DNA of 55,769 nucleotides from Candidatus Omnitrophota bacterium (GTDB lineage Bacteria; Omnitrophota; Omnitrophia; Omnitrophales; Aquincolibacteriaceae), in the NCBI GenBank assembly GCA_030698625.1, contig JAUYMS010000037.1, forward strand, positions 1 to 55,769. Direction: 5' to 3'. The notes beneath the pieces are model-generated. The model saw only the letters and a program-made list of their open reading frames with translations, was not told where the DNA came from and ran no database searches. Positions 19,001 through 39,780 of the stretch are shown here, piece after piece. Both the position numbers and the translations under genes were made by a program. How positions within the stretch are numbered: the stretch's first letter is position 1; each line of letters begins with the position of its first letter.

Positions 19001-19882
19001 ATGACCCATTTAGAGCGTTTAGAAAGCCAATCGGTCTATATTTTAAGAGAGGCCTACGCCCATTTTAAGAGTATGGCCATGCTGTGGTCCGTCGGCAAAG
19101 ACAGCACAGTGCTCCTCTGGCTTGCCCGCAAGGCCTTTTTAGGCCACGTGCCGTTTCCGCTGGTGCATATCGATACCGCCTTTAAAATTCCGGAGATGAT
19201 TGAATACCGCGACAAGCTAGCCCTAGAGTGGAAGTTGAACATGGTCTATGGCCAGAACGAACAAGCGCTTAAGGAAAAAAGGACTTATCCGGATGGTGCA
19301 CTGAGCCGTGTGGAGTGCTGTAAGGCCCTTAAGACGGATGCCTTGAGAAATACACTTGCCGGGACGTGGACACGCTATCGCATGGACCACGAGAAGAAAA
19401 CGTATGTGGTCGACGAAAACAAAGAACCCTACACGGGTGTGATCGTCGGTGTCCGGGCCGACGAAGAAGGGAGCCGGTCGAAGGAACGCTATTTTTCACC
19501 CCGCGATAAGCGGAGCGACTGGGATGTCGGCGACCAACCTCCAGAACTCTGGAATCAATTTAAGACAGATTTTGCTCCCGGAACTCATATCCGGGTTCAT
19601 CCTTTGCTGGATTGGACAGAACTCGATATTTGGGAGTATATCCAAAAAGAGGGAATCCCCGTTGTGCCCCTTTATTTCGATCAAGGAAAAGGCGAGCGCT
19701 ATCGCTCTCTGGGCTGCTATCCCTGCACTTTTCCGGTCGAGTCCCCGGCGAAAAGCATCAAAGATATTATTGCGGAGCTTAAGACGGGAAAGTTTAAGAA
19801 TATTGCAGAGAGAAGCGGACGCGCTCAGGATGCCGAAGACGGCGGCGGCCTCGAGACCTTGCGACGCGGCGGGTACATGTAA
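19001..19882 (+). CDS. cysD: Sulfate adenylyltransferase subunit 2
   Basis: 293 residues. The PP-loop motif is [17 protein letters not shown], preceded by the family's opening [16 protein letters not shown], and RRGGYM closes the protein as in other CysD. The [20 protein letters not shown] region matches the family. With CysN it makes adenosine 5'-phosphosulfate from sulfate and ATP, driven by GTP. The stop overlaps the cysN start (TAATG). The product can feed sulfur assimilation or sulfation; a frameshifted sulfotransferase gene is present at 54146. Confidence 0.95.
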
Positions 19883-21684
19883 TGAAGTCGGCTGAAACCC
19901 CCAAAATGAATATCGTGATTGTCGGTCACGTCGACCACGGGAAGTCGACGATAATCGGAAGGTTGCTCGCGGATACCGGTTCCTTGCCCGACGGGAAACT
20001 GGCGCAGGTGCGGGCGGAATGTAAGAGGACGGCAAAACCCTTTGAGTACGCCTTTCTCCTCGATGCGCTTAAGGACGAACAAGAACAGGGAATTACTATC
20101 GACACGGCTCGGTGCTTCTTCAAAAGTAAGAAACGCGAATACATTATTATTGATGCCCCGGGGCATATCGAGTTTCTGAAGAACATGATTTCGGGTGCCG
20201 CACGTGCGGAGGCCGCTCTCCTGGTCATTGATGCAGCAGAAGGCATTAGAGAGAATTCCAAGCGCCACGGTTATCTCCTCTCCATGCTGGGGATCCGGCA
20301 GTTGGCGGTTGTCGTCAATAAGATGGACCTCGTGGGCTATAAGGCGGCGGTTTTTCAGAAGATCAAGAAAGATTACGCAAGATTCCTGAAAGAAGTCGGG
20401 ATTTCGGCCCACACCTTTGTTCCGGTATCCGGCCGTGAAGGTGACAACATTATGAAACCGTCGATGAACTTAAAGTGGTTCAAAGGCCCTTCGATATTGA
20501 GTGTGCTCGACGAGTTTAAGAAGGCCCCGGGAATTGAAGACAAGGCCTTCCGCTTTCCCGTACAAGGGGTCTACCGGTTTACGGAAGAAGGAGACGATCG
20601 TAGACTAGTCGTGGGCCGGGTTGAGTCCGGAAAGGTATCTGTAGGGGACCCGGTTGTGTTTCTCCCTTCGCAAAAACGTTCGACGATTCAATCGATCGAG
20701 GCGTTTCACGCGCCCAAGCGAAAGACGGCTTATGCCGGCGTTTCGACGTCCTTTACGTTGCAAGAACAGGTGTATGTCAACCGCGGTGAGGTGATGTGTA
20801 AGGACGGCGACGCGCTTCCCGAAGTGAGCACCCTTCTGCGAGTGGAGCTTTTCTGGATGGGGAAGAGCCCGTTAGAGTTCGGGCGCGAATACAAGCTCAA
20901 GCTTGCTACGGCCAGCACTCCGGTGCACTTAAAGAAAATAGTGCGCGTTATCGACGCCTCGGATCTTAAAAAGCAAAACAAGAAGAAAATCGAACGGCAT
21001 GATGTTGCGCAATGCATCCTGGACTGTGCTCATCCGATCGCCTTTGATCTGACCGAAGTTCTGGAGGCGACCGGCCGGTTTGTGATTGTGGATAAATACG
21101 ACGTCGCCGGCGGCGGCATTGTTGTCGAGGCCCTTAAAGACGAACAGGAGGCGATACGGGAGCAGGTGAAGGTGCGCGAGGAAAAGTGGGATTTTAGTGT
21201 TGTGGACCCGCTCGAAAGAGCAACCCGATACGGGCACAAACCGCAGCTCGTACTTCTGACCGGAAAGGTCGGAGTAGACAAAAAGACGATCGCCAAAGAT
21301 TTTGACAAGGCGCTATTCGACATGGGGGCGAGGTCCTATTTCCTCGGTATCGGAAACCTTCTGCGCGGACTTAATTCGGACATTGAGACCGATAAAATTG
21401 CCCGTCACGAGCATGCGCGGCGGTTAGGAGAGGTTGCGCATCTCTTCATGGACGCAGGCCTTATTGTGGTTGCGACAGCCAGCAATCTCAACGATGAAGA
21501 GTTGCGCGGCATCAAGCAGGCGACGAACATGGATGACGTACTCATTGTGAACGTGGGGAAAAACGAATTCCGTCACAGCGTCGTCGATTTAAACCTACCG
21601 GAAAAAACAAATCCCGCCAAAAACGTGGAAAAAATATTTGAACTTCTGTATGAGCGCAAAGTCCTTTTCGGGAAGACTGCGTAA
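19882..21684 (+). CDS. cysN: Sulfate adenylyltransferase subunit 1 with a degenerate APS-kinase-like domain
   Basis: 600 residues. The GTPase part is intact: G1 GHVDHGKS (15-22), G3 DAPGH and G4 NKMD, then the EF-Tu-like barrels. From residue 454 an APS kinase domain follows as in NodQ/CysNC, but its P-loop reads GKVGVDKKT (461-469) where active kinases have GLSGAGKST, and the usual DGDNVRHGL substrate motif appears as [10 protein letters not shown]. The fold is kept ([18 protein letters not shown]), yet ATP binding looks lost. It should still activate sulfate; making PAPS would need another kinase. Confidence 0.9.
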
Positions 21685-25149: not shown

Positions 25150-28100
25150 GTGTTCGAATCCAAGGGGGAGATGAGGTCGTGCTTGCAGCGCTTCAAGGTC
25201 AGACTAAAAAACTACCGCAGTCCGTTAGCATCCGTTTTGGCCATCCTCTTATCTGTTTCATTTCCGCTTAATGAAAGTCTCGCCTTAAATAATAACGACC
25301 CCCTTTCCGTTCCGGAATCTCTCGGCTCCGTCCAGGAATCCTATACCGGCAATTCCGATAAGACCGTGTTCGTGATCCAGGATGCGCATGATTCTCTGGA
25401 AGCGCAGGAAAATATCGCCGCCTTGATTCATCACCTGGTTGAACATCGCGACGTAAAAACCGTCCTTGAGGAAGGTTATGAGGGCTCAGTGCCGAGTGAC
25501 GCCTATTTCGGATTTATCAAGGATCCCGCAATTAAAGAAAGAGTCTCCTATTTTCTCATGGACCAATTACGTATCAGCGGCGCGGAGTACGCACACATTA
25601 ATAGAAAAAAGAACTTTGAGCTTATCGGTGCTGACAACATCGACCTGCATGTCCGAAATGTGGAATCCTATCGGGTTCTGTATCAGAAAAGGGGAGAAAT
25701 TGAACAGGATCTCGGCGAGATTGAAACCCGCATCAAGAGGCTTGTGGATTCGCATCTTCCGAAAGAAGTCAAACACTGGATCAAACTGAAACAAAAGTCG
25801 CAGGAAGGCAAACTAAGTCTGCTTTCCTATTTGCAGCAGATGACGGCCTTATCACCCACTTCCAGGCCGGGTGAGAGTATTCGGACCCTTCTGCGGGCGG
25901 TAAAGCAGAATGACGAGGGCTCACTCAGCGAGGCAAGGGGCATTGATCCTATTAGGTTATTCAAGGAGATCGCAACATTTGAGAACTCCTTTGCAAACAC
26001 ACTACTCGGCAGTCCCCGGGACCGGGAGATCCTCCGGCATTATAAGGAAGTGCGGCTCTTGAAACGCCTGAGTGATTTGGAGATTACCGCAGAAGAATAC
26101 GCGGCCGTTAAGGAGACCCTCATTGATTTGAACACCAAAAAATTAGCCGCTTTTATCGCCGGGCAGACGAAGCGGTCGTTGCTTTTGTCCAAGCAGTGGG
26201 AGGCGGGTATTCAAAATGCCGTGCGATTTTACGAATTGGCGCAGCAAAGAGATGATGCGATTGAGCGGGCGCTCGAAACGTTTGAGCATCGACGGACCGC
26301 TCTTGTCTTCGGGGGTTTTCATAAAGACAGGATTACAGCCATTCTTAGGAAGAAAGGAATCTCCTATTACGTCATCGCCGTGAATATTACAAGAGAGAGT
26401 CCGCGCCATCAGAAGTATTATAAAAAGCTCATGCAAGTTGGATATGACGATATAAGCCTTCCGGGATTGGTTACCACGGCCACGCAACAGCCCACGTGGC
26501 CGGCCATGACGTCCCGCAGCGCAGACAGAGATACCGAGTTTCGATCCCTGATGAACCGCGTCGTGCTCATCGCGGAGCGGCTTCAGTCTATCGGTCTACC
26601 GTTATCACCGCAACAGCTGGGGCTCGCCCTTCGCTCCGAACTTAGGGAATCGTCTGAGGATGAAATCCGAAACCGCATCCGCTCCAATCTCATTGTGCTT
26701 TACGGACGGCGAGCCGGACTAGCCGCTTACGAGGACTTGTCGCAGTTTTTGAGAAAAGCGTATGCTCAAAGGCCGACAACACGCATGGACTCCGCAGGCG
26801 CGGAGCCCCACCCCTATGATCAGAGTGATGCGGTCTTCATTACTTATCCGGATTCTATTACCGATGGCAAAGAAGGGTTGCCTTTCCAGGCCCTCAGCCG
26901 ATTTGCGGCCGACCATCTCAAAGGGCTTTTTAACCGCATGCATATTCTGCCATTTTTTGCGTGGGATGCCGACCGGGGCTTCTCGGTTCTCAACTATCGC
27001 GAAGTCGATCCTAGGTTCGGTAGCTGGGATGATATTCGTGCGTTGCAACAGAATTTCGATTTGGCTTTCGATCTGGTCGCCAATCACGCATCGATTGATA
27101 ATCCGTGGATTCAAGCGGCCCTCATTCATCATGGGCTTGCCGACAACGATCTGCGCAGAGAAACGTACGCGCAATACAAAGATTTCGTGAAGGCCTATCA
27201 TGATGAAGACAAGCCGTCCGATGATGAAATGGATAAGGTCGTACATTTCAGAACGTCGCCGTTACTGTCACGGTATTATGTCATCGAAAAGGAGGGGGAC
27301 TTAACCGCGACCTTTGACCGTCCCGCCGACGATGAGGCGGTACTTGTTTATGGAGGCTGGGTTTGGACGACCTACAGCCGGCCGGATACTCCCGACGGAC
27401 GCGTGGGAACGCGGCAAATCGATCTCAACTACACCAATCCGGCGGTACTGATTGAGATGCTGAAAGTTCTTCGCTTTTATTCAACTCAAGGTGCCTCTAT
27501 TTTCCGGATCGATTCCGCGCCAATTCTATGGAAGGAGCCCGGAAAATTTTCACTGCATGAGCCGGAAACACGAAAATTACTTCAAATAATCAACGACGCC
27601 CTTACGCTGATGAATCCCAATATCATGACTATCGCGGAAATCAAAGACGAGCCTGCGACGGAGATGACTTATCTTGGGGAAGGTTCACGCAAGGAGTCGG
27701 ACCTCATCTATCAATTTTCGTCTTATCCGATGTCCGTCTATACGATCTTGAAAGGCGATGCACGATATTTTCGCGAATGGGTTCCTCGGTTAGAGAAGGC
27801 AGCGGGGCGGCAACTGCTGCTTCTTGCCGGAAGTCATGACGGGTTTACGGTCAGGCCGTTGGAGGGCCCGCTTGATGGGACCTCACCGCTGATACCCGAA
27901 GACGAGCGGCGGTGGCTGATCAAGCGATTACGTGAAGAGCATAGAGCGTTTGCCAATAAACGCATGGTAGACGGCGTCGATGTCGTGCGCGAAGTTGTAA
28001 CCACTCCCTGGGACGCGATCAATAAGCCGGATTCAAACGAAGCCCAGAGTCTGCAAGTAGACCGTTATGTGGCCTCCCTGGCGCTGGGCGTCGGTTTGCG

Positions 28101-30909
28101 CGGAATCCCCACGATTTACTACAATGGTCTCTTCGGTGTATCGATGACAACCGATGGTTTAGCGGATAACCGTGAATCAAACCGGCAGCCCTTGGATGAA
28201 GCATGGGTTCGTGACCAATTGCAGGATTCTGAGAGCCGTGCGTATCAGGTTTATCATCATATTCAGGAAATACTCGGGAAACGCGCTAAAGAATCCGCAA
28301 TGCATCCCTCCGGCCCGCCGGAGGTCGTCGTGGACGTGGCCAATGATCAGGTCGCCGCTTTGCTTCTGCGATCACAGGACGAATCCGAGAGCATTGTCAG
28401 TTTGGTCAACGTCTCTGCCGAGGAGCAGACCGTAACTTTAGACTTAGTGGATCTGGAGATGGATCAAACGGATCTATATGAACTGATAGCCGATGAGGTG
28501 ATTCCCCAGCCCAAAATGGGAAAACAGACTGTCGTCCTGAAGCCTTATCAGGTTGCATGGGTTAAGCATGTCAAAATTGAAAACCCCGTCATTGAAGCCC
28601 TCAAGCCGGTTGCCGTTCCCATGGACGGATCTTCGGCGTACGCTCAGGCAAAAAGGCAATTTACGGAACAACTGGAAGAAAAGGTGAAGGCGCGTACGGC
28701 GGTCTTGCAGCCCACAAACTTTGATCCGGACGACGATTCGGATCTGCTCGCGGAGGAATTTTATAAGGTATTTCAGGATGCCGCCAATGACACCTATCGG
28801 TGGATAAAAACCGTGGATCAGAGCGGCCATTTCTTCGCAGACAACGAAAAATTTCACAAGCTCATCGAAGGGCTCGTCATTATCGGTTACGGCGGTATCG
28901 GTCGAAAGATGTTTTACGGAGGGTCTTCGGACATCGATTGGATCTTTATTTTCCCAGAATACATTGACGAGCCGGGGGACCTCGAAGACTTTCAACTCCT
29001 GGAGAATATCAAAGAAGAGTTCTGGGACATCATCAAACGTGCCGTACCCAATAACCAAAAAAGAGATATTCACGCCGTGAGTAAAGTCAGCACGCTAGGC
29101 AAGGCCTTCGGGGCGGGAGATTTTACTCCCATGGATACGGCGATTCTTGCACATACGGATCTTGTTGCTGCGACTTACATTGCCGGCAACTCGGAGCTCT
29201 ACGGCCGATACCGATCCGCCGTCGATGAAGGCATTCGCACTCGCGTGCCGTATGACGAAGTCCAACTAATGAATTATTTCATGAGACGTGTTCACCACCA
29301 TGCCTTCCCGGATGGGATGATCGATCTCAAGCTGATGAAGGGAGGATTTACCGAGATCGCTTTTCTTTATCACCTCGCTCATGCCCATGCGGGATTCCCC
29401 CGCATGACCTTTGAAGAATCGCTCAGTTATCTCCAGGATGAAGGAATTATCAGCCAGTTGCGAGGAGAAGGGATCATCACCGCCGAAGATGCCGAAATCG
29501 TCATTGAGACGTTGCGCCTGCTGACTTTCATTCGCCTCAGCCACGGCGGTATTCGTCTTCAGAATAACGAATGGCTTCAATATGTAGAGTCTGCGGCCAT
29601 CATCCTGGATTCCGGGAAAATTTTCACTTACGAGGAGCTTAATACCCGATTTATGGAGGTGGTAGCGAAGGGCGAGAGATTTTTTCTGAAGACCAGCATG
29701 GGAATCGATGAGAAGACGCTCGATATCCTCCTGGAACGCCCATGGAGTTCTCCGGAAGAATTTCGTAAGGCGGCACATATTCATCATGAGAACACTTACA
29801 TCGATAACTTCGTCCTGTGGCAAACTCGGAGCGCAGATTTTTTATTTGAAACCTTTTTCCGTGAGCTAAATCGCCGACACGGCAATCTGAAACGGGCCGA
29901 CTGGCTTACGCTTATGGCGCTATCAGGCAATGCGAGTTCGCCGCCGGTTATATTGCAGGAGATGCTTACGTATGGCCATTTGCCCCGATTCCGCGAGCAA
30001 GTTGCCCTAGTGGCCAAAAATCACAATGCCGATACCGGCACGTTGCGTGAAATCGCCTGGAGTCCGGGAGTGAAGCCGCTCTATCGCGGGCAGGCGGTGG
30101 AGAATCTTTATGGCCGCGCACGTGCGCTGGGAAGCGTTCAAGAAGAGTCAGAGCGGCCGGCAATCATAAGAACCGAATCAGGATTAACGGATCCGGACAC
30201 GACTTTGCTGCTCCTCGATGATGTGTTTCAGAGATTGCCGCGGCACTATAGAACCGCGGACGGTACCGACGACAGTGTCTACGAGAGTTTCAGACAGCGC
30301 ATGCATAATCCTACGTCCGCCATTTTTAAAAAACGCTCCGAACTGCGACTCAGCTCGTCTGACATCGACACGGCCGAGTCGAAAACCGTCTCCGACGTCT
30401 TTGGGCAGCTAAAAGGCAGATTTACAATTTTTGTTAATCTGGAGGATGTCCGGCAGCTTACCGGCGAGCAATTCCGTATTGATTATGAAATTCCGCCCCT
30501 CCTCAGCAAGAATATCAGGTACGTATTCTATAATGACCGGGGAAATCTTGATCCGAAAAGACGATTTGTAATTGAACAGATGCAGTCACAGTTCGGCCAC
30601 GACAGGATTGAGATTACCGCCGACCTTCTTATCGATACCGTGGATCGAGCGAAAGTAGGGAAGTGGCTTCACGTTGCACGCACCGACAAGAGTGTGGCCG
30701 CTGCCGCGCGTCTTGATAAAACGGTTGAAATCTACCGGTTCCGGTATATATTTGACGAAACCGGTCTCGTCCCGGCGGCGATTCTTTTGGCAGACGGCGG
30801 AATTCAGGATTCTGAAAACCGGGTCATTGATCTCTCGATGATTCCTCACTCGATCACCCTGGAGGTGCAGGAGTTTCTTGCCAGGCGCGTCTTTGAGCGT
30901 GCGGCATAA
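25150..30909 (+). CDS. Giant secreted multidomain protein: ChaN-like + GH13 (sucrose-phosphorylase-like) + GlnE-like nucleotidyltransferase
   Basis: 1919 residues. A signal or anchor segment (about 25-45) is followed by a ChaN/TraB-like region (about 70-420; VIQDAHDSLEAQENIAALIH, LEEGYEGS, ALVFGGFHKDRI). Residues about 558-1140 are GH13, closest in style to sucrose phosphorylase: region I DLVANH (641-646), nucleophile Asp 788 in FRIDSAP, acid/base Glu 830 in TIAEI, Asp 897 in GSHDG. Residues about 1170-1640 hold a nucleotidyltransferase with GSSDIDW (1258-1264) and LKLMKGGFTEIAFL, as in glutamine synthetase adenylyltransferase. The last 280 residues are unassigned. All visible catalytic residues are kept. 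The start is uncertain: GTG 25150, ATG 25171 and TTG 25183 are all possible. Export of a nucleotidyltransferase is odd. Confidence 0.85.
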   Translation: MFESKGEMRSCLQRFKVRLKNYRSPLASVLAILLSVSFPLNESLALNNNDPLSVPESLGSVQESYTGNSDKTVFVIQDAHDSLEAQENIAALIHHLVEHRDVKTVLEEGYEGSVPSDAYFGFIKDPAIKERVSYFLMDQLRISGAEYAHINRKKNFELIGADNIDLHVRNVESYRVLYQKRGEIEQDLGEIETRIKRLVDSHLPKEVKHWIKLKQKSQEGKLSLLSYLQQMTALSPTSRPGESIRTLLRAVKQNDEGSLSEARGIDPIRLFKEIATFENSFANTLLGSPRDREILRHYKEVRLLKRLSDLEITAEEYAAVKETLIDLNTKKLAAFIAGQTKRSLLLSKQWEAGIQNAVRFYELAQQRDDAIERALETFEHRRTALVFGGFHKDRITAILRKKGISYYVIAVNITRESPRHQKYYKKLMQVGYDDISLPGLVTTATQQPTWPAMTSRSADRDTEFRSLMNRVVLIAERLQSIGLPLSPQQLGLALRSELRESSEDEIRNRIRSNLIVLYGRRAGLAAYEDLSQFLRKAYAQRPTTRMDSAGAEPHPYDQSDAVFITYPDSITDGKEGLPFQALSRFAADHLKGLFNRMHILPFFAWDADRGFSVLNYREVDPRFGSWDDIRALQQNFDLAFDLVANHASIDNPWIQAALIHHGLADNDLRRETYAQYKDFVKAYHDEDKPSDDEMDKVVHFRTSPLLSRYYVIEKEGDLTATFDRPADDEAVLVYGGWVWTTYSRPDTPDGRVGTRQIDLNYTNPAVLIEMLKVLRFYSTQGASIFRIDSAPILWKEPGKFSLHEPETRKLLQIINDALTLMNPNIMTIAEIKDEPATEMTYLGEGSRKESDLIYQFSSYPMSVYTILKGDARYFREWVPRLEKAAGRQLLLLAGSHDGFTVRPLEGPLDGTSPLIPEDERRWLIKRLREEHRAFANKRMVDGVDVVREVVTTPWDAINKPDSNEAQSLQVDRYVASLALGVGLRGIPTIYYNGLFGVSMTTDGLADNRESNRQPLDEAWVRDQLQDSESRAYQVYHHIQEILGKRAKESAMHPSGPPEVVVDVANDQVAALLLRSQDESESIVSLVNVSAEEQTVTLDLVDLEMDQTDLYELIADEVIPQPKMGKQTVVLKPYQVAWVKHVKIENPVIEALKPVAVPMDGSSAYAQAKRQFTEQLEEKVKARTAVLQPTNFDPDDDSDLLAEEFYKVFQDAANDTYRWIKTVDQSGHFFADNEKFHKLIEGLVIIGYGGIGRKMFYGGSSDIDWIFIFPEYIDEPGDLEDFQLLENIKEEFWDIIKRAVPNNQKRDIHAVSKVSTLGKAFGAGDFTPMDTAILAHTDLVAATYIAGNSELYGRYRSAVDEGIRTRVPYDEVQLMNYFMRRVHHHAFPDGMIDLKLMKGGFTEIAFLYHLAHAHAGFPRMTFEESLSYLQDEGIISQLRGEGIITAEDAEIVIETLRLLTFIRLSHGGIRLQNNEWLQYVESAAIILDSGKIFTYEELNTRFMEVVAKGERFFLKTSMGIDEKTLDILLERPWSSPEEFRKAAHIHHENTYIDNFVLWQTRSADFLFETFFRELNRRHGNLKRADWLTLMALSGNASSPPVILQEMLTYGHLPRFREQVALVAKNHNADTGTLREIAWSPGVKPLYRGQAVENLYGRARALGSVQEESERPAIIRTESGLTDPDTTLLLLDDVFQRLPRHYRTADGTDDSVYESFRQRMHNPTSAIFKKRSELRLSSSDIDTAESKTVSDVFGQLKGRFTIFVNLEDVRQLTGEQFRIDYEIPPLLSKNIRYVFYNDRGNLDPKRRFVIEQMQSQFGHDRIEITADLLIDTVDRAKVGKWLHVARTDKSVAAAARLDKTVEIYRFRYIFDETGLVPAAILLADGGIQDSENRVIDLSMIPHSITLEVQEFLARRVFERAA

Positions 30910-30983
30910 TCACACTCTGTAGCCGTCATCACCCACCCGTAACTCTCTTATTTGCAGCATATTAGAAATTTTGTCAGAAGCGG

Positions 30984-31011
30984 TTGCATTTCATTATAAA
31001 TATATTATAAT
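30984..31011 (+). promoter_or_regulatory. Promoter of the central-carbon operon
   Basis: TTGCAT (30984-30989), 16-base spacer, TATAAT (31006-31011), in strongly AT-rich sequence that contrasts with the genes around it. Transcription would start near 31018, giving a 67-base leader. Confidence 0.65.
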
Positions 31012-31041
31012 TATAGCAAGAACAAACAACTATATAAGAAT

Positions 31042-31067
31042 AAGATACAATTATATCTTTTAAGATA
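31042..31067 (+). repeat. Inverted repeat in the operon leader
   Basis: AAGATA (31042-31047) pairs with TATCTT (31053-31058), and AAGATA recurs at 31062-31067, so two alternative hairpins are possible. The leader carries no good ribosome site before the ATG at 31085. The repeats may be an operator or may control translation. Confidence 0.4.
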
Positions 31068-31084
31068 ACTTTTTATATCAGTCT

Positions 31085-32734
31085 ATGAACGCAGCAGAAC
31101 TATTCATTAAGTGCCTAGAAGCTGAGGGCGTAAAAGCCATCTTTGGTGTGCCTGGCGAAGAGAATGCCGATTTCGTCATGGCCCTCGACAAATCTCCCAT
31201 TCAATTGATTCTAACGCGCCATGAACAGGGGGCTGCGTTTATGGCGGAGGTGCATGGGCGTTTGACCGGCGAAGCCGGAGTGTGTTTGGGTACGCTCGGT
31301 CCGGGTGCGGCGAATCTTGTGACCGGAGTTGCCGACGCCAATATGGACCATTCTCCGGTGATTGTTATCACAGGGCAGGCTGACAGCGAGCGCATGCACA
31401 AAGAGAGTCACCAGAACATGGATGTGGTAAGCATGTTCAAGCCCATTACGAAATGGGCGCATACTATTTATCATCCGAATAATGTACCCGAGGTAGTTCG
31501 GAAGGCCTTTAAACTGGCCACGACCGAAAAACCTGGGGCCTGCCATATTGAACTCCCTGAAGACATTGCAGCAATGAAAACCACCGGACAGCCGCTCGTT
31601 CCAAAGCGCGTGCGGCGACCCGTGCCGGCTGATAAAATTGTGGATCAAGCCTGGGAAGCGATCAAGACTGCAAAGCGCCCCATAATTCTTGCCGGCAACG
31701 GCACCATCCGTAAACGTGCGAGTAAACAATTGCGTCTTCTAGCGGAAAAGACGGGGATCGGTGTGGCTAGCACCTTTATGGGCAAAGGCTGTGTTGATCG
31801 CGATTCAGATCAATGCCTCTTCACCATCGGTCTTCAAGCGAAGGATCTTGTCACTTGCGTCGTTGATGCGGCAGACCTCGTGATTACTGTCGGTTATGAC
31901 ATGGTGGAATATCACCCCAGCTTGTGGAATCCCAAGGGAGATAAGAAAATCGTGCATATTGATTTTCTTCCTGCCGAAGTAGACGATCATTACCCGGTTG
32001 ATGTGGAGGTGGTCGGCGATTTGGCGCACACCTTATGGATGCTTAACGAGCGCGTTGATAAAGACGGAAGCCCCTCTTACGACCTCAATCATCAGCATTC
32101 GGCCCGCCAGCAAATGCTGGAAGACTTCGAGCAGTACAAGGACGACGATACGGAAGGGACCATCCGGCCTCAGAAGGTTTTGTGGGATGTCCGTCGGGCT
32201 CTCGGACCCCGCGATATTCTGCTTAGCGATGTGGGTGCCCATAAGATGTGGATCGCCCGTTATTACCAATGCAATGAACCCAACACGTGCCTCATTCCCA
32301 ATGGCTTCTGTTCGATGGGGTTTGCCCTTCCCGGCGCGATAGCGGCAAAAATGGCCTGTCCCGATCGGAATATTTTAGCCATATGCGGAGACGGCGGTTT
32401 TATGATGAACGTTCAAGAGATGGAGACGGCCAAGCGCACGAATCAGGACATCGTGGTCATGATTTGGGAAGATAAGAAGTACGGGCTGATTGAATGGAAG
32501 CAGCAAGGTCATTTCGGAAAGCACATTGACCTTAGTTTTGAGAACCCTGATTTTGTAAAGTTGGCCGATGCTTTTGGTTGGGGCGGAATGCGCGTTGATA
32601 ATTCACGCGATCTGGCAGGTGCGCTGGAAGCTGCTCTGAAGCAAAGCGGGCCGACGCTGATAAGCATACCCATCGATTATCGCGAAAATTATCTTCTGAG
32701 CAAACGATTGGGGCAGATCGCATGTCCGATCTAA
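31085..32734 (+). CDS. Thiamine-diphosphate enzyme, acetolactate-synthase-like; probable 2-oxoglutarate decarboxylase
   Basis: 549 residues. The N-terminal domain has the activating Glu (E47 in LTRHEQGAAFM), and GDG at 435-437 binds the cofactor magnesium. The usual Asn metal ligand after it is Glu 462 (WEDKKYG). Sequence style (FGVPGEEN, NMDVVSMFKPITKW) is like proteins labelled acetolactate synthase. In cyanobacteria a protein so labelled is a 2-oxoglutarate decarboxylase paired with succinic semialdehyde dehydrogenase. Here an aldehyde dehydrogenase overlaps it by 13 bases, and no small regulatory subunit is present, so that role is preferred. Acetolactate synthase or glyoxylate carboligase cannot be excluded. 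Confidence 0.75.
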   Translation: MNAAELFIKCLEAEGVKAIFGVPGEENADFVMALDKSPIQLILTRHEQGAAFMAEVHGRLTGEAGVCLGTLGPGAANLVTGVADANMDHSPVIVITGQADSERMHKESHQNMDVVSMFKPITKWAHTIYHPNNVPEVVRKAFKLATTEKPGACHIELPEDIAAMKTTGQPLVPKRVRRPVPADKIVDQAWEAIKTAKRPIILAGNGTIRKRASKQLRLLAEKTGIGVASTFMGKGCVDRDSDQCLFTIGLQAKDLVTCVVDAADLVITVGYDMVEYHPSLWNPKGDKKIVHIDFLPAEVDDHYPVDVEVVGDLAHTLWMLNERVDKDGSPSYDLNHQHSARQQMLEDFEQYKDDDTEGTIRPQKVLWDVRRALGPRDILLSDVGAHKMWIARYYQCNEPNTCLIPNGFCSMGFALPGAIAAKMACPDRNILAICGDGGFMMNVQEMETAKRTNQDIVVMIWEDKKYGLIEWKQQGHFGKHIDLSFENPDFVKLADAFGWGGMRVDNSRDLAGALEAALKQSGPTLISIPIDYRENYLLSKRLGQIACPI

Positions 32735-34179
32735 AGACTTCGGTGTTGAAGCAGAGCTATCCTTATTATCTTGCCAATAAGCCGGTTGCCGCCAACCAAG
32801 ACCTCAAGGTGATTGACAAATTTACCGGGGAAGTCGCTACGGAGGTAGCGCTTGCTGATGAAAAGGCTATTGATCAGGCGATCGCCAAGGCTGTTCGGGC
32901 GGTCGAACCTTTGCAGGCCATGTCGGCCTATGATCGGCAGGAAGTATTGCGGCATTGTCTGAAACGCTTCGAAGAAAGGCGGGAGGAGTTAGCCCTCAGC
33001 CTCTGCATCGAAGCCGGAAAACCCATTAAGGATGCCCGCGGAGAAGTAAGCCGTCTTATCGATACCTTTCGCGTGGCCTCGGAAGAAGCCGTTAGGCTCT
33101 ATGGGGAGGTCATGCCGCTCGATATCTCACTGAATACGCGCAATTATCGCGGTATGTGGAAGCGGGTGCCCATCGGCCCTTGCAGTTTTATATCACCGTT
33201 TAATTTTCCCCTGAATCTGGCGGCGCACAAAATTGCTCCCGCGGTTGCGGTCGGCTGCCCCTTTGTCTTGAAGCCGGCCAGTCTGACGCCGATTGGCGCG
33301 CTTGTGATTGGCGAGATTCTCGCTGAAACAAATTTGCCTGAGGGGGCGTTCTCGATTCTTCCCTGCCGTCGTGACGGCGCAGAACTTTTTACGACAGACG
33401 AGCGTTTTAAATTGTTGAGCTTTACGGGTTCTCCGAGCGTAGGTTGGGATCTCAAGGCGAAGGCGGGCAAGAAAAAAGTGGTGCTCGAATTGGGAGGCAA
33501 CGCTGCCGTCATCGTCGAACCCGATTCTGATTTGGATGACGTGACAAATCGTATTATGGTCGGCGCTTTTTATCAGTCGGGTCAAAGTTGCATCAGTGTG
33601 CAGCGCATCCTGATTCACTATAAAATTTATGATGAATTGCGCGACCGGCTCGTTGCCGCGGCCAGCAAGCTTGTTAAGGGAGATCCCAAGGATGAAAAAA
33701 CATTTATCGGTCCGATGATCGCTGAAAAAGAGGCGGACCGGCTTGAGTCATGGATCAATGAAGCGGTCGAGCGCGGGGCGAAACTCCTTTGCGGGGGATC
33801 CAGAGAAGGAACCATGATGGAAGCGACTCTCTTGGAAGATGTGCCTTCCGATGTCACGATTTCCAGTCAGGAGGCTTTCGGTCCTGTTGCCTGCTTGGCC
33901 AAGTACCGTGACTTCGATGATGCCCTGAATACGATTAATGAGAGCCGCTATGGGCTACAGGCCGGCGTCTTTACGCAAAATCTGTATAAAATGTACCGGG
34001 CCTGGGACCGACTCGACGTTGGCGGTGTTATCATCGGCGATGTCCCTTCGTGGCGCGTCGATAACATGCCTTATGGCGGGGTCAAAGACAGCGGCCTCGG
34101 CCGCGAAGGGGTTCGTTTCGCCATGCAAGATATGACTGAGATACGGCTCATGGTCGTGCGTGATCCCGCACCTAAATAA
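32722..34179 (+). CDS. NAD(P)-dependent aldehyde dehydrogenase, probable succinic semialdehyde dehydrogenase
   Basis: 485 residues, full length. It has FISPFNFPLNLAAHKIAPA, the cofactor-loop FTGSPSVGWDLKAKAG, the general-base Glu in LELGGN and the nucleophile Cys in QSGQSCIS, plus the closing PYGGVKDSGLGREG. It overlaps the upstream decarboxylase gene by 13 bases, so the pair is translationally coupled. Oxidation of succinic semialdehyde to succinate fits the context; non-phosphorylating glyceraldehyde 3-phosphate dehydrogenase is an alternative within the same superfamily. Confidence 0.85.
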   Translation: MSDLKTSVLKQSYPYYLANKPVAANQDLKVIDKFTGEVATEVALADEKAIDQAIAKAVRAVEPLQAMSAYDRQEVLRHCLKRFEERREELALSLCIEAGKPIKDARGEVSRLIDTFRVASEEAVRLYGEVMPLDISLNTRNYRGMWKRVPIGPCSFISPFNFPLNLAAHKIAPAVAVGCPFVLKPASLTPIGALVIGEILAETNLPEGAFSILPCRRDGAELFTTDERFKLLSFTGSPSVGWDLKAKAGKKKVVLELGGNAAVIVEPDSDLDDVTNRIMVGAFYQSGQSCISVQRILIHYKIYDELRDRLVAAASKLVKGDPKDEKTFIGPMIAEKEADRLESWINEAVERGAKLLCGGSREGTMMEATLLEDVPSDVTISSQEAFGPVACLAKYRDFDDALNTINESRYGLQAGVFTQNLYKMYRAWDRLDVGGVIIGDVPSWRVDNMPYGGVKDSGLGREGVRFAMQDMTEIRLMVVRDPAPK

Positions 34180-34209
34180 CACACTTGTGGTTAAGTGAGG
34201 AGGAAAGTG

Positions 34210-35577
34210 ATGACAAAAGTTGCGACTAAAGATCCTGCAGTGCAGAAAGAGCTCGCGTGCTTTATGACGGGATTGATCCGGCGTAATCCGGGCGAGACCG
34301 AATTCCACCAAGCCGTTCAGGAAGTCTCCGAAACGCTAATGCCATTTTATCTTCAACACGCGCAGTATCGTAAGGCCCAAGTCCTGGAAAGGATGACTGA
34401 ACCGGACCGCGTTATCATCTTTCGCGTCTCGTGGGTGGATGACGAGGGTAATCCGCGCGCCAATCGCGGTTACCGTGTTCAATTCAATAATTCCATCGGA
34501 CCGTACAAAGGGGGATTGCGTTTTCACCCTGACGTGACGCTGAGTGTTTTTAAATTTCTGGGTTTCGAACAGGTTTTCAAGAACAGCCTGACGACACTTC
34601 CCATGGGCGGCGCCAAGGGGGGTGCGAATTTTAATCCCAAAGGCAAATCCGACGGTGAAGTCATGCGTTTCTGCCAGTCCTTCATGACGGAACTCTCCAA
34701 GTACATCGGAAAGGATATTGATGTGCCTGCCGGCGACATCGGCGTTGGTGCCCGTGAAATCAGTTATATGTTTGGTCAATTCAAACGCATCCATAATGAA
34801 TACGGCGGAGTTTTGACGGGCAAGGGGCTCGCTTTTGGAGGAAGTTTGATACGCACTGAAGCGACCGGCTATGGGTGCGTTTACTTTCTCAATGAGATGC
34901 TGGCTTACGTCGGCGAATCCGTGAAGGGAAAGAAATGCCTGGTTTCGGGTTCCGGCAACGTGGCACAGTTTACTGCGGAAAAGATCATCGAACTCGGCGG
35001 TAAAGTGCTCACGCTTTCGGACTCCGCAGGCTACATCTATGACCCCGACGGCATTACTCGCGAAAAGCTCGAGTTCGTGAAGGAGTTGAAGAATGTCCGG
35101 CGAGGCCGCATCAGCGAATATGCGGGGAAATTCGGCTGCGAATACCATGAAGGCAAAACGCCGTGGCGCGTGCCCTGTGATATTGCGTTTCCGTGTGCGA
35201 CCCAAAACGAGATCAGCCTTGAAGACGCCAAAGCATTAATTGCTAATGGTGTGAAGGCCATTGCCGAGGGCGCCAACATGCCGACCGTAATCGAGGGAAC
35301 GCATGCGTTTCTCGAAGCCAAGGTGCTCTATGCTCCCAGCAAGGCCGCCAATGCGGGCGGGGTGGCTGTTTCCGGTTTGGAGCAAACACAGAACGCGATG
35401 AGGCTTTCCTGGAGTCGTGAGGAAGTCGATCACCGTCTTCTCGAGATCATGAAGAGCATTCACGGCAAATGCGTCGAATACGGACAGGAAGGCGATTATG
35501 TCAACTACGTCAAAGGCGCGAATATTGCAGGATTCATCAAAGTAGCTGATGCCATGATTGCATGCGGCATCGTTTAA
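34210..35577 (+). CDS. gdhA: Glutamate dehydrogenase (NADP-type)
   Basis: 455 residues from the ATG at 34210, preceded by GAGGAGG; a GTG five codons earlier lies inside that ribosome site and is rejected. Catalytic segment GGLRFHPDVTLSVFKFLGFE and PMGGAKGG, then the Rossmann part SGSGNVAQFTAEKI, match the hexameric bacterial enzyme (usually about 450). It interconverts glutamate and 2-oxoglutarate, so it can feed the enzyme encoded two genes upstream. It lies 30 bases after the aldehyde dehydrogenase stop. Confidence 0.95.
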   Translation: MTKVATKDPAVQKELACFMTGLIRRNPGETEFHQAVQEVSETLMPFYLQHAQYRKAQVLERMTEPDRVIIFRVSWVDDEGNPRANRGYRVQFNNSIGPYKGGLRFHPDVTLSVFKFLGFEQVFKNSLTTLPMGGAKGGANFNPKGKSDGEVMRFCQSFMTELSKYIGKDIDVPAGDIGVGAREISYMFGQFKRIHNEYGGVLTGKGLAFGGSLIRTEATGYGCVYFLNEMLAYVGESVKGKKCLVSGSGNVAQFTAEKIIELGGKVLTLSDSAGYIYDPDGITREKLEFVKELKNVRRGRISEYAGKFGCEYHEGKTPWRVPCDIAFPCATQNEISLEDAKALIANGVKAIAEGANMPTVIEGTHAFLEAKVLYAPSKAANAGGVAVSGLEQTQNAMRLSWSREEVDHRLLEIMKSIHGKCVEYGQEGDYVNYVKGANIAGFIKVADAMIACGIV

Positions 35578-35594
35578 CCCATGCATGAGGACCC

Positions 35595-36803
35595 ATGGCC
35601 GATTTTTACGAACGTAGTCTTAGCATGCATGAGCAGTTGCGCGGAAAGATCGGCGTTCATAGTAAGATCCCCATTAACAGCCATGACGACCTCTCTATAG
35701 CCTACACTCCGGGTGTAGCGCGTCCCTGTGAAGTCTTGGGGAAAGATCCTTCGAAAGCGCGCGAATTAACGATCAAGCGTAATACCGTTGCCGTTGTCAG
35801 TGACGGCTCGGCGGTTCTGGGGCTCGGCAATATTGGGCCTTATGGGGCCATTCCTGTTATGGAAGGCAAGGCATTGCTTTTCAAAGAATTCGCCGATATT
35901 GACGCCTGGCCGATTTGTCTGGATACTCAAGACACTCAAGAAATTATTGCCGCGGTACGGCATATCGCGCCTGTATTCGGCGGCATTAATTTAGAAGATA
36001 TTGCTGCTCCGCGATGCTTTGAAGTGGAAGCGGCCCTCCAGGATCTCGGCATTCCCGTATTTCACGACGATCAGCACGGTACGGCGATTGTACTCTTGGC
36101 CGCACTCTTGAATGCCGCAAAAGTTGTGGGGCGCAAGGTTACCGATATCCGTGTGGTCATCAATGGTGCGGGCGCAGCTGGCACCGCCATTGCAAATCTA
36201 TTACGGTGTGTCGGCCATGACCCTGCCGTATGCGCTCCCGTCAAAGACGTCATCGTTTGTGATTCCAAAGGCGTGATTCACTCCGGTAGAAAAGATCTCT
36301 CACCCGCTAAGGAAAAGCTGCTCAAATTCACCAATCGCAGCGGCCGTGAGGGGTCTTTGAGGGACGTCCTCGAAGGATGTGATGTCTTTATCGGCGTCAG
36401 CAAGGGAAACCTTCTTTCCGGCGAGGACATCAAACGTATGGCGGCTGACCCCATTGTGTTTGCGATGGCCAATCCGGAGCCTGAGATTATGCCTGATGAA
36501 GCCAGACAAGCAGGTGCCGCCGTTGTCGGAACGGGGCGAAGCGACTTCCCGAACCAGGTCAACAATGTCTTGGTCTTTCCGGGTATCTTCCGAGGGGCTC
36601 TGGATGCAGGTTCCCGTACGATCACCGATGCGATGAAGCTTGCCGCGGCTCATGCACTGGCCGATTGCGTCGAGCAGCCTGACTCCGATCACATCCTGCC
36701 GGATCCGCTCGACCGAAGTGTTGCCCCTAAAGTTGCCCGCGCGGTATCTGATGCCGCCGAAGCCGATACCCCGAATCAGACTTCATCTCCCGCCGGCAGA
36801 TAA
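35595..36803 (+). CDS. Malic enzyme (short form)
   Basis: 402 residues. It starts YERSLSMHEQLRGKIGVHSK and contains AYTPGVARPCEVL, the metal/substrate segment INLEDIAAPRCFEVE, DDQHGTAIV and a Rossmann GAGAAG motif. It lacks the phosphotransacetylase-like domain of long MaeB enzymes. It oxidatively decarboxylates malate to pyruvate with NAD or NADP. Eighteen bases after gdhA, it is the last gene of the operon. It faces isocitrate lyase and malate synthase, whose product is malate. Confidence 0.93.
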   Translation: MADFYERSLSMHEQLRGKIGVHSKIPINSHDDLSIAYTPGVARPCEVLGKDPSKARELTIKRNTVAVVSDGSAVLGLGNIGPYGAIPVMEGKALLFKEFADIDAWPICLDTQDTQEIIAAVRHIAPVFGGINLEDIAAPRCFEVEAALQDLGIPVFHDDQHGTAIVLLAALLNAAKVVGRKVTDIRVVINGAGAAGTAIANLLRCVGHDPAVCAPVKDVIVCDSKGVIHSGRKDLSPAKEKLLKFTNRSGREGSLRDVLEGCDVFIGVSKGNLLSGEDIKRMAADPIVFAMANPEPEIMPDEARQAGAAVVGTGRSDFPNQVNNVLVFPGIFRGALDAGSRTITDAMKLAAAHALADCVEQPDSDHILPDPLDRSVAPKVARAVSDAAEADTPNQTSSPAGR

Positions 36804-36821
36804 CTCATGAAACCGCAAGGT

Positions 36822-36843
36822 TTTCCCGGGCTTCTGGGGGAAA
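36822..36843. terminator. Possible shared hairpin between convergent genes
   Basis: TTTCCC (36822-36827) can pair with GGGAAA (36838-36843), extended by adjacent G/C bases, between the ends of the malic enzyme and isocitrate lyase genes. There is no long T tract on either strand, so it is a weak candidate. Confidence 0.3.
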
Positions 36844-36860
36844 TTAGGAAAAAGGATTAA

Positions 36861-38156
36861 CTACTTTCTCTTTTTCTTGCCGCGGTGGAACTGTTCCGAT
36901 TCCGTTGACCCTTTCATACTTAGCGTTGAGGATTTCCCCCCGGTTGCCGCCTGAGTTACGGTGTCAAAATAGCCTGTCCCGACGAATTCCTGGTGCCGCA
37001 CAGCCTCATAACCGAACTTCTCGGCCTTGAATTCCTCCTCCTGCAATTTAGAGTAAGCAGCCATGCCGTCAGTGCGGTAGTCACGAGCCAACATAAACAT
37101 CCCGTAGTTTAGGGCGTGAAACGCAGACAGCGTAACGAATTGAAATTTGTAACCCATCGCGCCGAGCTTTTCTTGAAATTTTCCTATCGTTTTCTTATCC
37201 AAGTGAAGCCGCCAGTTAAAGGAAGGCGAGCAATTGTAGGCAAGCATCTTCCCTGGATATTCCTTGTGAATTGCTTTGGCAAACTCCTTGGCCTGGCTGA
37301 GGTCAGGCAGCGACGTCTCGAACCACAGAAGGTCGGCGTAAGGCGCGTAAGCGAGGGAGCGGGCAATGGCCTGGTCAAGACCCGCGCGGACCTTCCAGAA
37401 GCCTTCTGAGGTCCTAGCACCGCGAATAAAGCGTTGATCATAGGGATCAATGTCGTTTGTCAAAAGGGAAGCGCCCAGTGCGTCGGTCCGGGCAATGAGG
37501 ATGGTATCGACTCCCGAAACGTCAGCGGCAAGCCGGGCCGCAGTCAATTTAGTGATGAACTCTTGGGTGGGAACGAGTACTTTTCCGCCCAGATGCCCGC
37601 ACTTTTTTACAGAGGCAAGCTGATCCTCAAAGTGGACACCGGCCACACCCTCCTCAATCATCCGCTTCATAATCTCAAAGGCATGAAGAGATCCTCCGAA
37701 GCCCGCCTCGGCGTCGGCGATCAGGGGCGCCAGCCAGTGGATTCGATGGTCGTTTTTCAAGTGATGAATTTGATCCGCTCTCATGAGGGCGTTGTTAATG
37801 CGTTTGATCAGATAGGGGACGCTGTCGGAAGGGTAAAGGCTCTGGTCCGGGTACATGCTCAGGGAATTGTTCATGTCCGCTGCAACCTGCCAGCCGCTGA
37901 CATAGATCGCCTTGAGTCCGGCACGGACCAACTGCACAGCCTGATTGCCGGTAACCGCACTCAGGGCGCGCACGAAGCGATCCGTTTTTAAGAATTTCCA
38001 CAACTGGTTAGCACCGGCCCGTGCGATTGAAAATTGCCGGTGCACTGTTCCCTTAAGCCGGTAGACCTCGGCGGCGCTGTAGGTTCGTTTGATTCCCTGC
38101 CAACGGGATGACTTCCAATGCCGATTTGTTTGGTCTATGAATTGTTTTTTATTCAT
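36861..38156 (-). CDS. aceA: Isocitrate lyase
   Basis: 431 residues, like E. coli AceA in length. The catalytic motif [10 protein letters not shown] has its Cys at residue 186. [15 protein letters not shown] and the SPSFNW substrate loop are also present. It splits isocitrate to succinate and glyoxylate. AAGGGG precedes its ATG by six bases, and it lies ten bases downstream of malate synthase. The C-terminus is Lys-rich (RGKKKRK). Confidence 0.96.
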
Positions 38157-38166
38157 TTGTGTCCCC

Positions 38167-39780
38167 TTAGTCCAAGTATGCGTAGGCTTCTAAAGTGAGA
38201 AATTCCGGGCATTTTTCTTGTGTGCTGATACGCTCAAATAAAGACGAAGCTCGGTCGAAGGCGCCTCCTTCGAATTTTTCAGCGCCGATCAACTCACGAA
38301 TTTTTTCGAGTTCTTCACGTACCACCGTCTTGACACGATCTGCCGTAATCACCCTGCCGTCGGTAGTCTTTGCCTTGTGCCGGACCCATTGCCATACCTG
38401 GGTGCGGGAGATTTCGGCTGTGGCGGCGTCTTCCATTAGGTTATAGATAGGCACGCAGCCGGTTCCGCGCAGCCAGGATTCAAGATAGAGAATTCCCACA
38501 TTCACATTGGTGCGTAACCCTTTGTCGGTAATATCGCCGGCCGGTACCTCGAGCAGGTCTTTGGCGGTTACGTTTACGTCTTCGCGAGTCACAGTGAGCT
38601 GATTGGGACCTTTCATCTGGTCATTGAACGCACTCATGGCGATTTCGATCAGTCCCGGGTGAGCGACCCAGGTTCCGTCATGCCCCGCTTGGGCTTCGCG
38701 GAGTTTGTCCTGGCGTACCTTTTCGAGCGCCGCTTCGTTTGCTTTCGGGTCGGACTTGATCGGAATCTGAGCGGCCATTCCGCCCATGGCGTGAATTCCG
38801 CGACGGTGGCATGTTTTAATCAAGAGTTTTACATAGGCACTCAAGAAAGCTTTGTCCATGGTAACCTGAGCGCGATCGGGGAGCATGAACTCGGGTTTTT
38901 GCCTAAACCGTTTGATGAAACTGAAGATGTAGTCCCAGCGACCGCAATTTAATCCGGAAGAATGGTCTTTGAGCTCGTAGAGAATCTCATCCATTTCAAA
39001 ACTGGCCAAAATTGTTTCGATGAGTACCGTTGCGCGAATCGTACCGTTGGGAATCCCCAGGTCCTTCTGGGATGCAATGAAGACGTTATTCCACAAGCGC
39101 GCTTCAAGATGGCTCTCCATTTTCGGCAAATAGAAATAGGGCCCCGTCCCTTTGCTGAGGAGTGTTTTTGTATTGTGGAAGAAATAAAGACCAAAATCGA
39201 AAAGCGAGCCTGAGATCGGATGCCCGTCAACAGACAGGTGCTTTTCCACTAGGTGCCAGCCCCGCGGCCGCACCACCAGAGTCGCGATCTTGTCCGCGAG
39301 CTGATAGGATTTTCCTTCCGGACTGGTGAACTGGATGGTTCTGTTTACAGCGTCGCGGAGATTAATGTGGCCTTCGATGTTGTTGGCCCAGGTGGGGCAA
39401 TTGGAGTCCTCAAAATCCGCCATAAAGACATGGGCGCCCGAGTTCAGGGCATTGATCATCATCTTGCGGTCTACCGGACCGGTGATCTCGACCTTGCGTT
39501 CGGTCAGATCCTTGGGAATGGGAGCGACGGTCCACGCCGCTTCACGAACGGATTTTGTTTCGGTCAGGAAATCAGGCAATTTGCCATCGTTGATTTCCTG
39601 CTGCCGGATCTCCCGCTTTGCGAGGAGGCCAACTCGGGTAGCGTCGAACTTCCGGGATAGGCTCGCCAAGAAGCGAAGGGCCTCCGCCGTCAGGATATCT
39701 TCGTATCCGGGCGCCATGTGCCCGTTGATTTCAATGCCTTCGGCCCTGAGGTCCTCTATGGAATTTTGAGATGAGCCCAT
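38167..39780 (-). CDS. aceB: Malate synthase A
   Basis: 537 residues, the A-type length. It contains [65 protein letters not shown] with the acidic magnesium ligands, and the late AHPGL motif. It condenses glyoxylate with acetyl-CoA to malate. With aceA downstream it completes the glyoxylate shunt, allowing growth on C2 units or fatty acids. It is divergent from the exonuclease gene at 39853. A standalone AceK or IclR is not seen here. Confidence 0.96.

Follow-up and report, generated by a model that had tools for sequence, protein, structure and literature searches.

In Synechococcus 7002, the genes ogdA and ssaD (SynPCC7002_A2770-A2771) are described as an operon (PMC5160925), and in this cyanobacterial bypass an AlsS-like thiamine diphosphate (ThDP) enzyme of ~550 aa, a 2-oxoglutarate decarboxylase (KGD), is encoded directly before a dehydrogenase of the succinic semialdehyde dehydrogenase (SSADH) type. 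Cyanobacteria are also reported to have an NADP-linked, malic-enzyme-dependent tricarboxylic acid (TCA) cycle (PMC9765476). In Mycobacterium tuberculosis, a ferredoxin oxidoreductase (KOR), KGD and the glyoxylate shunt lead in parallel from 2-oxoglutarate (PMC2773412), and in Pseudomonas fluorescens the activities of SSADH, 2-oxoglutarate decarboxylase and isocitrate lyase are presented as a network directed towards 2-oxoglutarate synthesis (PMC6716453). A comparable set of genes lies in the stretch analysed here, a 55,769-nucleotide contig (JAUYMS010000037.1, hereafter the window) of Candidatus Omnitrophota bacterium, where a ThDP enzyme gene overlaps an aldehyde dehydrogenase gene at the head of a six-gene block (positions 31085-39780). 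We propose, with a probability of about 0.78, that these two genes encode a 2-oxoglutarate decarboxylase and SSADH pair, which would belong to a module on a respiratory TCA cycle and run in parallel with a KorAB-type route. The proposal draws on gene content, spacing, conserved residues, homology and genomic context, and on the finding of no gene for the E1 component of 2-oxoglutarate dehydrogenase (OGDH).

The predicted substrates, cofactors and direction of flux are as follows. The ThDP enzyme would remove CO2 from 2-oxoglutarate to give succinic semialdehyde, which the aldehyde dehydrogenase of the overlapping gene would oxidise to succinate, probably with NADP+. The next two genes would add glutamate dehydrogenase (GDH), connecting glutamate with 2-oxoglutarate, and malic enzyme, turning malate into pyruvate with NAD(P)H. 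Taken as a whole, the operon would thus be a linear module from glutamate/2-oxoglutarate to succinate and from malate to pyruvate. Isocitrate lyase and malate synthase, a convergent unit of their own, may bypass this stretch of the TCA cycle from the isocitrate side, and the KorAB-type oxidoreductase encoded elsewhere is probably a second route through succinyl-CoA.

The 549-aa ThDP enzyme is a three-domain ThDP protein with the GDG motif and the catalytic Glu. It passed the model NF006187, an equivalog labelled 'acetolactate synthase large subunit', with 767.7 bits (cut-off 509), came within 0.1 bit of the AlsS model NF006378 (509.9 bits, cut-off 510) and matched acetolactate synthases as its top-scoring solved structures. 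These scores would fit a catabolic or biosynthetic acetolactate synthase, as the NCBIfam name has it, standing beside a general aldehyde dehydrogenase. We consider this very unlikely, since a second AlsS model, TIGR02418, was missed by 82 bits (469.1 bits, cut-off 551.1) and the acetohydroxyacid synthase (AHAS) model TIGR00118 by a wider margin (411.5 bits, cut-off 538), the pocket residues differ, SSADH-type partners recur beside the homologues, and the genome carries its own ilvB-ilvH on contig C13, followed by a probable ilvC (identified solely by the start of its sequence), with no IlvH gene within the six-gene block.

The pocket residues were compared by means of 17 ThDP- or substrate-contacting positions of the 550-aa Microcystis KGD (MaKGD), taken from the text of PMC10418658. 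In the window enzyme, 16 of the 17 are present in register, 14 of them at one offset and two (Glu50 and Gln254) at another, whereas alignment finds 7/17 in the IlvB of the same genome, 7/17 in Escherichia coli IlvI and 4/17 in E. coli Gcl. All six residues of the pocket itself are kept in the window enzyme, compared with two in either IlvB or IlvI and one in Gcl. The pocket reads Ala-His-Lys and Leu...Lys in the window enzyme and Ser-His-Ala and Met...Gln in the AlsS chain 4rjj (presumably from Bacillus), which has Ala at the K386 position and Gln at the K471 position. The IlvB of the same genome has Gln-His-Gln and Met...Trp, its K471 position being occupied by Trp in one alignment and Gln in another, neither of them Lys. 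Lys472 of the window enzyme occupies the K471 position, where a residue other than Lys would mark a biosynthetic AHAS.

The neighbouring isocitrate lyase makes glyoxylate and the ThDP superfamily includes carboligases, which raises the alternative of a glyoxylate-shunt carboligase (glyoxylate carboligase or 2-hydroxy-3-oxoadipate synthase) that condenses glyoxylate with pyruvate or 2-oxoglutarate. This seems extremely improbable given the 287.6 bits scored against the glyoxylate carboligase model NF008431 (cut-off 791), the 4/17 KGD residues of E. coli Gcl against 16/17 in the window protein, and the failure to find an isocitrate lyase or malate synthase gene among the closest neighbours, three per side, when 94 loci around homologues were scanned. 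The glyoxylate shunt beside a KGD-like gene is therefore seen in this genome only. The acetolactate synthase, AHAS and glyoxylate carboligase readings were accordingly rejected on cut-offs, residues and context.

The decarboxylase and SSADH reading also bears on the second gene, the product of which aligns over almost its full length with the Physcomitrella ALDH21 chain 5mz5 (566.8 bits) and scores still higher against 5kf0 (716.5 bits). It has the catalytic residues Cys290 and Glu256 and a Lys184/Ser187 pair of the NADP type, also found in the moss enzyme; a Lys/Ser pair is described as marking NADP preference in cyanobacterial SSADH (PMC7510979). Moss ALDH21 is reported as an NADP-dependent SSADH (PMC7823795). 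It differs from the window enzyme in serving a γ-aminobutyrate (GABA) shunt, whereas the window enzyme is bacterial and the operon partner of a decarboxylase. The cyanobacterial SSADH, in turn, is of the Sad type and not of the ALDH21 type. No NCBIfam model was passed by the window dehydrogenase among the best 25 of 42 matches.

All six open reading frames (ORFs) of the block are intact and full-length, and six full-length genes of such kinds are not a chance reading (Table 1). The ThDP and aldehyde dehydrogenase genes overlap by 13 bases, and gaps of 15 and 17 bases precede the GDH and malic enzyme genes; from this spacing we infer that the four-gene run (31085-36803) is one transcript. Malate synthase and isocitrate lyase, separated by 10 bases, form the second unit, convergent to that run. 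Curated NCBIfam cut-offs were passed by four of the six products, namely the ThDP enzyme, GDH, isocitrate lyase and malate synthase A, while the aldehyde dehydrogenase (Aldedh) and malic enzyme (malic, Malic_M) exceeded Pfam cut-offs and, among the models listed, no NCBIfam cut-off. Of the 764 positions of the model NF009501, the malic enzyme covers 19-363 only, with a score under the cut-off. A promoter scan of the intergenic stretch upstream of the operon yielded no consensus sigma-70 site. The GC content of the block is 0.52-0.55, compared with 0.45-0.52 in seven other window genes computed, and its base composition gives no hint of recent transfer. The initial annotation had described this layout and the lack of an IlvH-type small subunit, and both are borne out by the intact ORFs, the family scans and the separate ilvB-ilvH-ilvC set. 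Its possible 2-oxoglutarate decarboxylase agrees with the specific cut-offs and pocket residues, by which the ThDP enzyme is neither a biosynthetic or catabolic acetolactate synthase nor a glyoxylate carboligase, although the NF006187 label was passed. Its assignment of the aldehyde dehydrogenase as SSADH is supported in that an SSADH has been characterised in the subfamily of this protein.

Table 1 Positions of the six genes and the upstream stretch in the window, with the evidence for each.
Feature	Position	Strand	Evidence
ThDP enzyme, predicted 2-oxoglutarate decarboxylase (ogdA/KGD-like)	31085..32734	+	NF006187 767.7 bits; 16/17 MaKGD residues
ALDH21-type aldehyde dehydrogenase, predicted NADP-linked SSADH	32722..34179	+	566.8 bits 5mz5, 716.5 bits 5kf0; C290, E256, K184, S187
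NADP-specific glutamate dehydrogenase	34195..35577	+	PRK09414 731 bits, cut-off 536
Malic enzyme, short form (402 aa)	35595..36803	+	Pfam malic and Malic_M over cut-off
Isocitrate lyase	36861..38156	-	PRK15063 704 bits, cut-off 562
Malate synthase A	38167..39780	-	TIGR01344 820 bits, cut-off 594.5
AT-rich intergenic stretch, 175 bases, upstream of operon	30910..31084	+	Read directly; probable promoter region

Relatives of the ThDP enzyme were collected from named genomes, of which the best 80 of 120 (61-71% identity) were kept. By their record titles, these belong mostly to Gammaproteobacteria, and also to Alphaproteobacteria, Zetaproteobacteria, Planctomycetota, Myxococcota, Latescibacterota, Binatia and Hydrogenedentota. 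The pocket residues V, A, H, K, L and K are all kept in 80/80, and 14-16 of the 17 MaKGD residues are present. Within the same phylum, 19/384 genomes, this one included, have a homologue at E <= 1e-100. The other 18 homologues are 43-54% identical to the window enzyme and keep both Lys386 and Lys471 in 18/18 and His385 in 15/18, with two to six of the six pocket residues; one of them (L113) has 17/17 MaKGD residues. In another phylum genome (G269), a second, unlike ThDP enzyme (L124:5238-6962; 29% identity, 1/6 pocket residues) is encoded directly before the KGD-like gene. In a quickly built maximum-likelihood tree (110 rows without the partial row L129, rooted at midpoint, with SH-aLRT as the only support measure and flags on long branches), the window protein groups with the 80 named relatives and three plasmid copies (84 rows, support 100), and 17 phylum rows fall apart from this group. 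Because of this placement, the tree suggests that the window ThDP gene came from outside its own phylum.

An aldehyde dehydrogenase lies within 1.2 kb of the ThDP homologue in 59/103 loci, and in 59/59 it is co-directional. The 103 loci comprise 80 named, 5 plasmid (picked from the match list) and 18 phylum loci, with the dehydrogenase present in 40/80, 2/5 and 17/18, respectively; among named loci with >=1.6 kb on both sides, it stands beside the gene in 32/56. It is also the commonest neighbour among the three nearest genes on each side, at 57/94 loci (nine loci were skipped by the ORF picker), the next cluster reaching 12. In a tree of 57 rows, from which proteins <380 aa were dropped and to which the window's own dehydrogenase, that of L164 and the E. 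coli enzymes GabD and Sad were added, these dehydrogenases form four lineages, three of which contain a characterised SSADH. The first is the ALDH21 type, with nine rows including the window's. The second, the Sad type, holds 14 phylum rows and one haloarchaeon; the two members that were compared share 47% identity with E. coli Sad, and L119, the single member searched, scored 418-422 bits against SSADH chains including 3vz3, which is A2771 of Synechococcus 7002 (PMC7510979). The cyanobacterial SSADH type thus accompanies the homologues of 14/18 phylum-mates and not that of the window. The third, the GabD type, is found at one locus, with 59% identity to E. coli GabD. The presence of three separate SSADH-containing lineages beside one decarboxylase family is what would be expected if the product of the ThDP enzyme is succinic semialdehyde.

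GDH or FMN-type glutamate synthase was found within 3 kb of the ThDP homologue in 18/106 loci, 17 of them co-directional. Besides the window, GDH occurs in four of these loci and FMN-type glutamate synthase in 14; the search for the synthase started from the gene annotated next to L164, a locus that is itself counted. By set, the named loci contribute 15/80 and the plasmid loci 3/8. The loci with the synthase are L038, L050, L051, L053, L065, L066, L067, L068, L071, L074, L075, L078, L162 and L164, and several of them also carry an aldehyde dehydrogenase, forming a recurrent glutamate synthase-KGD-SSADH module. In a metagenome-assembled genome of Phycisphaera, two different glutamate-dehydrogenase-like genes stand in tandem before the KGD-like gene (L013:3171-5944).

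The genome to which the window belongs (G000; 3.52 Mb, 50 contigs, 95% complete) carries further TCA cycle genes. Contig C37 holds a cluster of isocitrate dehydrogenase (IDH), malate dehydrogenase and aconitase genes, with citrate synthase-sucC-sucD following at a distance of two genes; the IDH gene stayed under the cut-off of every IDH model. A second citrate synthase lies on C35, succinate dehydrogenase (SDH) on C21 and a COX1 gene for a heme-copper oxidase on C50. The OGDH E1 C-terminal domain PF16870 had no match in this genome at its 95% completeness and exceeded its cut-off in 0/384 phylum genomes, this one included, with weak matches of ~20 bits in 10. On contig C43, a 2-oxoacid:acceptor oxidoreductase resembling KorAB is encoded (alpha 617 aa, beta 344 aa). 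Its alpha subunit passed the subfamily model TIGR03710 (648 bits, cut-off 482.75), and the beta subunit passed no listed NCBIfam cut-off (TIGR02177, 244.7/261.9); against the 2-oxoglutarate-specific models, neither alpha (PRK09627, 197.8/579) nor beta (PRK09628, 188.1/364) passed. Because the genome has both this KorAB-type oxidoreductase and SucCD, a second route from 2-oxoglutarate to succinate is likely, and a TCA cycle with the bypass as its sole route is not supported; the bypass is probably a parallel branch at 2-oxoglutarate. The initial annotation had envisaged a TCA cycle without OGDH: this stands insofar as no OGDH E1 was found in this genome or, over the cut-off, in any of the 384 phylum genomes, and it is not supported as a description of the whole wiring.

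The same annotation had called such a cycle unexpected for a fermentative or acetogenic group, a view weakened by the heme-copper oxidase and SDH of this genome and by the distribution of COX1 in the phylum. COX1 exceeded its cut-off in 17/19 phylum genomes with the ThDP enzyme versus 60/365 others (Fisher p about 4e-11, uncorrected for relatedness), and 307/384 sampled phylum genomes had no COX1 over the cut-off. Since 17/19 holders have it, most phylum holders of the ThDP enzyme look able to respire oxygen, and the bacterium studied here is probably respiring.

Compared with the described systems, the locus is closest to the cyanobacterial bypass in the order and length of its first gene, in the published residues and in that no OGDH E1 was found. 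It is unlike that bypass in the GDH and malic enzyme that follow and in the KorAB-like enzyme and SucCD that the genome adds. As in the cyanobacterial malic-enzyme cycle, a single pathway would contain both malic enzyme and an SSADH predicted to be NADP-linked, but the present genome has malate dehydrogenase in its TCA gene cluster. As in M. tuberculosis, ferredoxin oxidoreductase and decarboxylase routes would run in parallel, with the glyoxylate shunt added to them. The mycobacterial KGD belongs to the OGDH E1 type, whereas the window decarboxylase is AlsS-like and in an operon with its own dehydrogenase. The P. fluorescens network combines the same three activities, but it is known from activities, and the word 'acetolactate' is absent from the text of PMC6716453.

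Several observations weigh against the proposed pair and its place in the TCA cycle. The likeness to cyanobacterial KGD was scored on published residue positions. The MaKGD residue list derives from docking into a predicted model and from mutants of some positions, and the text used here (PMC10418658) describes no mutants of K386, K471 or Q254. Position 408, with Cys for Ala, is the sole mismatch in the window enzyme, and position Q254 varies among the named relatives (Q in 39, G in 37, S in 3 and A in 1 of 80). The window dehydrogenase passed neither of the curated SSADH models TIGR01780 (329/646 bits) and PRK11241 (295/828), the fourth partner lineage, which is the largest with 30 rows, is without a close characterised SSADH (one member searched), and 24/56 named loci with ample flanks had no aldehyde dehydrogenase beside the gene. 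A glutamate enzyme lies within 3 kb in 0/18 phylum loci. The distant plasmid members L110, L111 and L162 keep K386 and K471 with no annotated aldehyde dehydrogenase neighbour; the two lysines are therefore not unique to the proposed function, and different activities are probably combined under NF006187. L110 and L111 adjoin AEC-family transporters and have Ile at the His385 position, and L110 passes NF006187; both probably represent another activity inside the same annotated family. In the genome itself, class II fumarase was not found and class I was not searched; two Lyase_1 matches were rejected as class II fumarase, being PurB and ArgH. Finally, OGDH E1 is also present in 33/50 named genomes with the ThDP enzyme that were searched (of 80), and in 17/50 it was not found, although drafts can miss genes. 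In many cases, therefore, the ThDP enzyme does not substitute for OGDH, and the anti-correlation expected of a pure OGDH replacement was not seen.

The co-occurrence with OGDH in 33/50 genomes, the lack of a close characterised SSADH for the commonest partner dehydrogenase type and the varying substrate position Q254 would be compatible with a pair acting on another 2-oxo acid of similar size (2-oxoadipate, 2-oxoglutaramate or hydroxylated 2-oxoglutarate) and the matching semialdehyde, in a side catabolic pathway and not a TCA branch. We regard this as unlikely, as 3/4 partner lineages include characterised SSADHs, glutamate enzymes recur beside the ThDP gene and the window protein has 16/17 KGD residues.

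Some methanogens and anaerobic bacteria carry related genes, to which Zhang and Bryant had already drawn attention according to PMC12214013. Judged by title and abstract start among the matches listed, no report of an AlsS-like decarboxylase/SSADH pair outside cyanobacteria was found in the open-access literature. Four features seem to be new, none having been found reported there: the partner is of the ALDH21 type, GDH and malic enzyme share the operon, the genome also encodes a KorAB-like enzyme, and the family is broadly represented in OGDH-bearing bacteria. We would give even odds to a broader proposal, in which a large branch of the proteins now labelled NF006187, spread over Proteobacteria, Planctomycetota, haloarchaea and this phylum, has 2-oxoglutarate decarboxylase activity, has recruited SSADHs from at least three aldehyde dehydrogenase lineages and recurs with glutamate dehydrogenase or synthase, forming a GABA-free glutamate-to-succinate shunt that often stands beside OGDH or KOR without replacing them. 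If this is true, the cyanobacterial bypass would be one case of a far wider, mostly misnamed family, present also in bacteria with other 2-oxoglutarate routes; flux maps of many uncultured groups would change, a widely used annotation would be corrected, and the question would arise of why a CoA-free, NADPH-yielding branch is kept beside OGDH or KOR.

Other features were observed in the window and the genome. Directly upstream of the operon (window 25150-30909) lies a 1919-aa ORF with an alpha-amylase domain in mid-protein and long flanks without a Pfam match. An EF-Tu-like GTPase fused to an adenylylsulfate (APS) kinase domain is encoded at window 19882-21684, which we take to be a CysN/CysC-like sulfate activation protein. 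On contig C33, phosphoenolpyruvate (PEP) mutase-like and phosphonopyruvate decarboxylase genes adjoin each other (L149:4284-7105); the PEP mutase model was missed by about 5 bits and the decarboxylase model was passed, and the pair is likely a phosphonate biosynthesis cluster.

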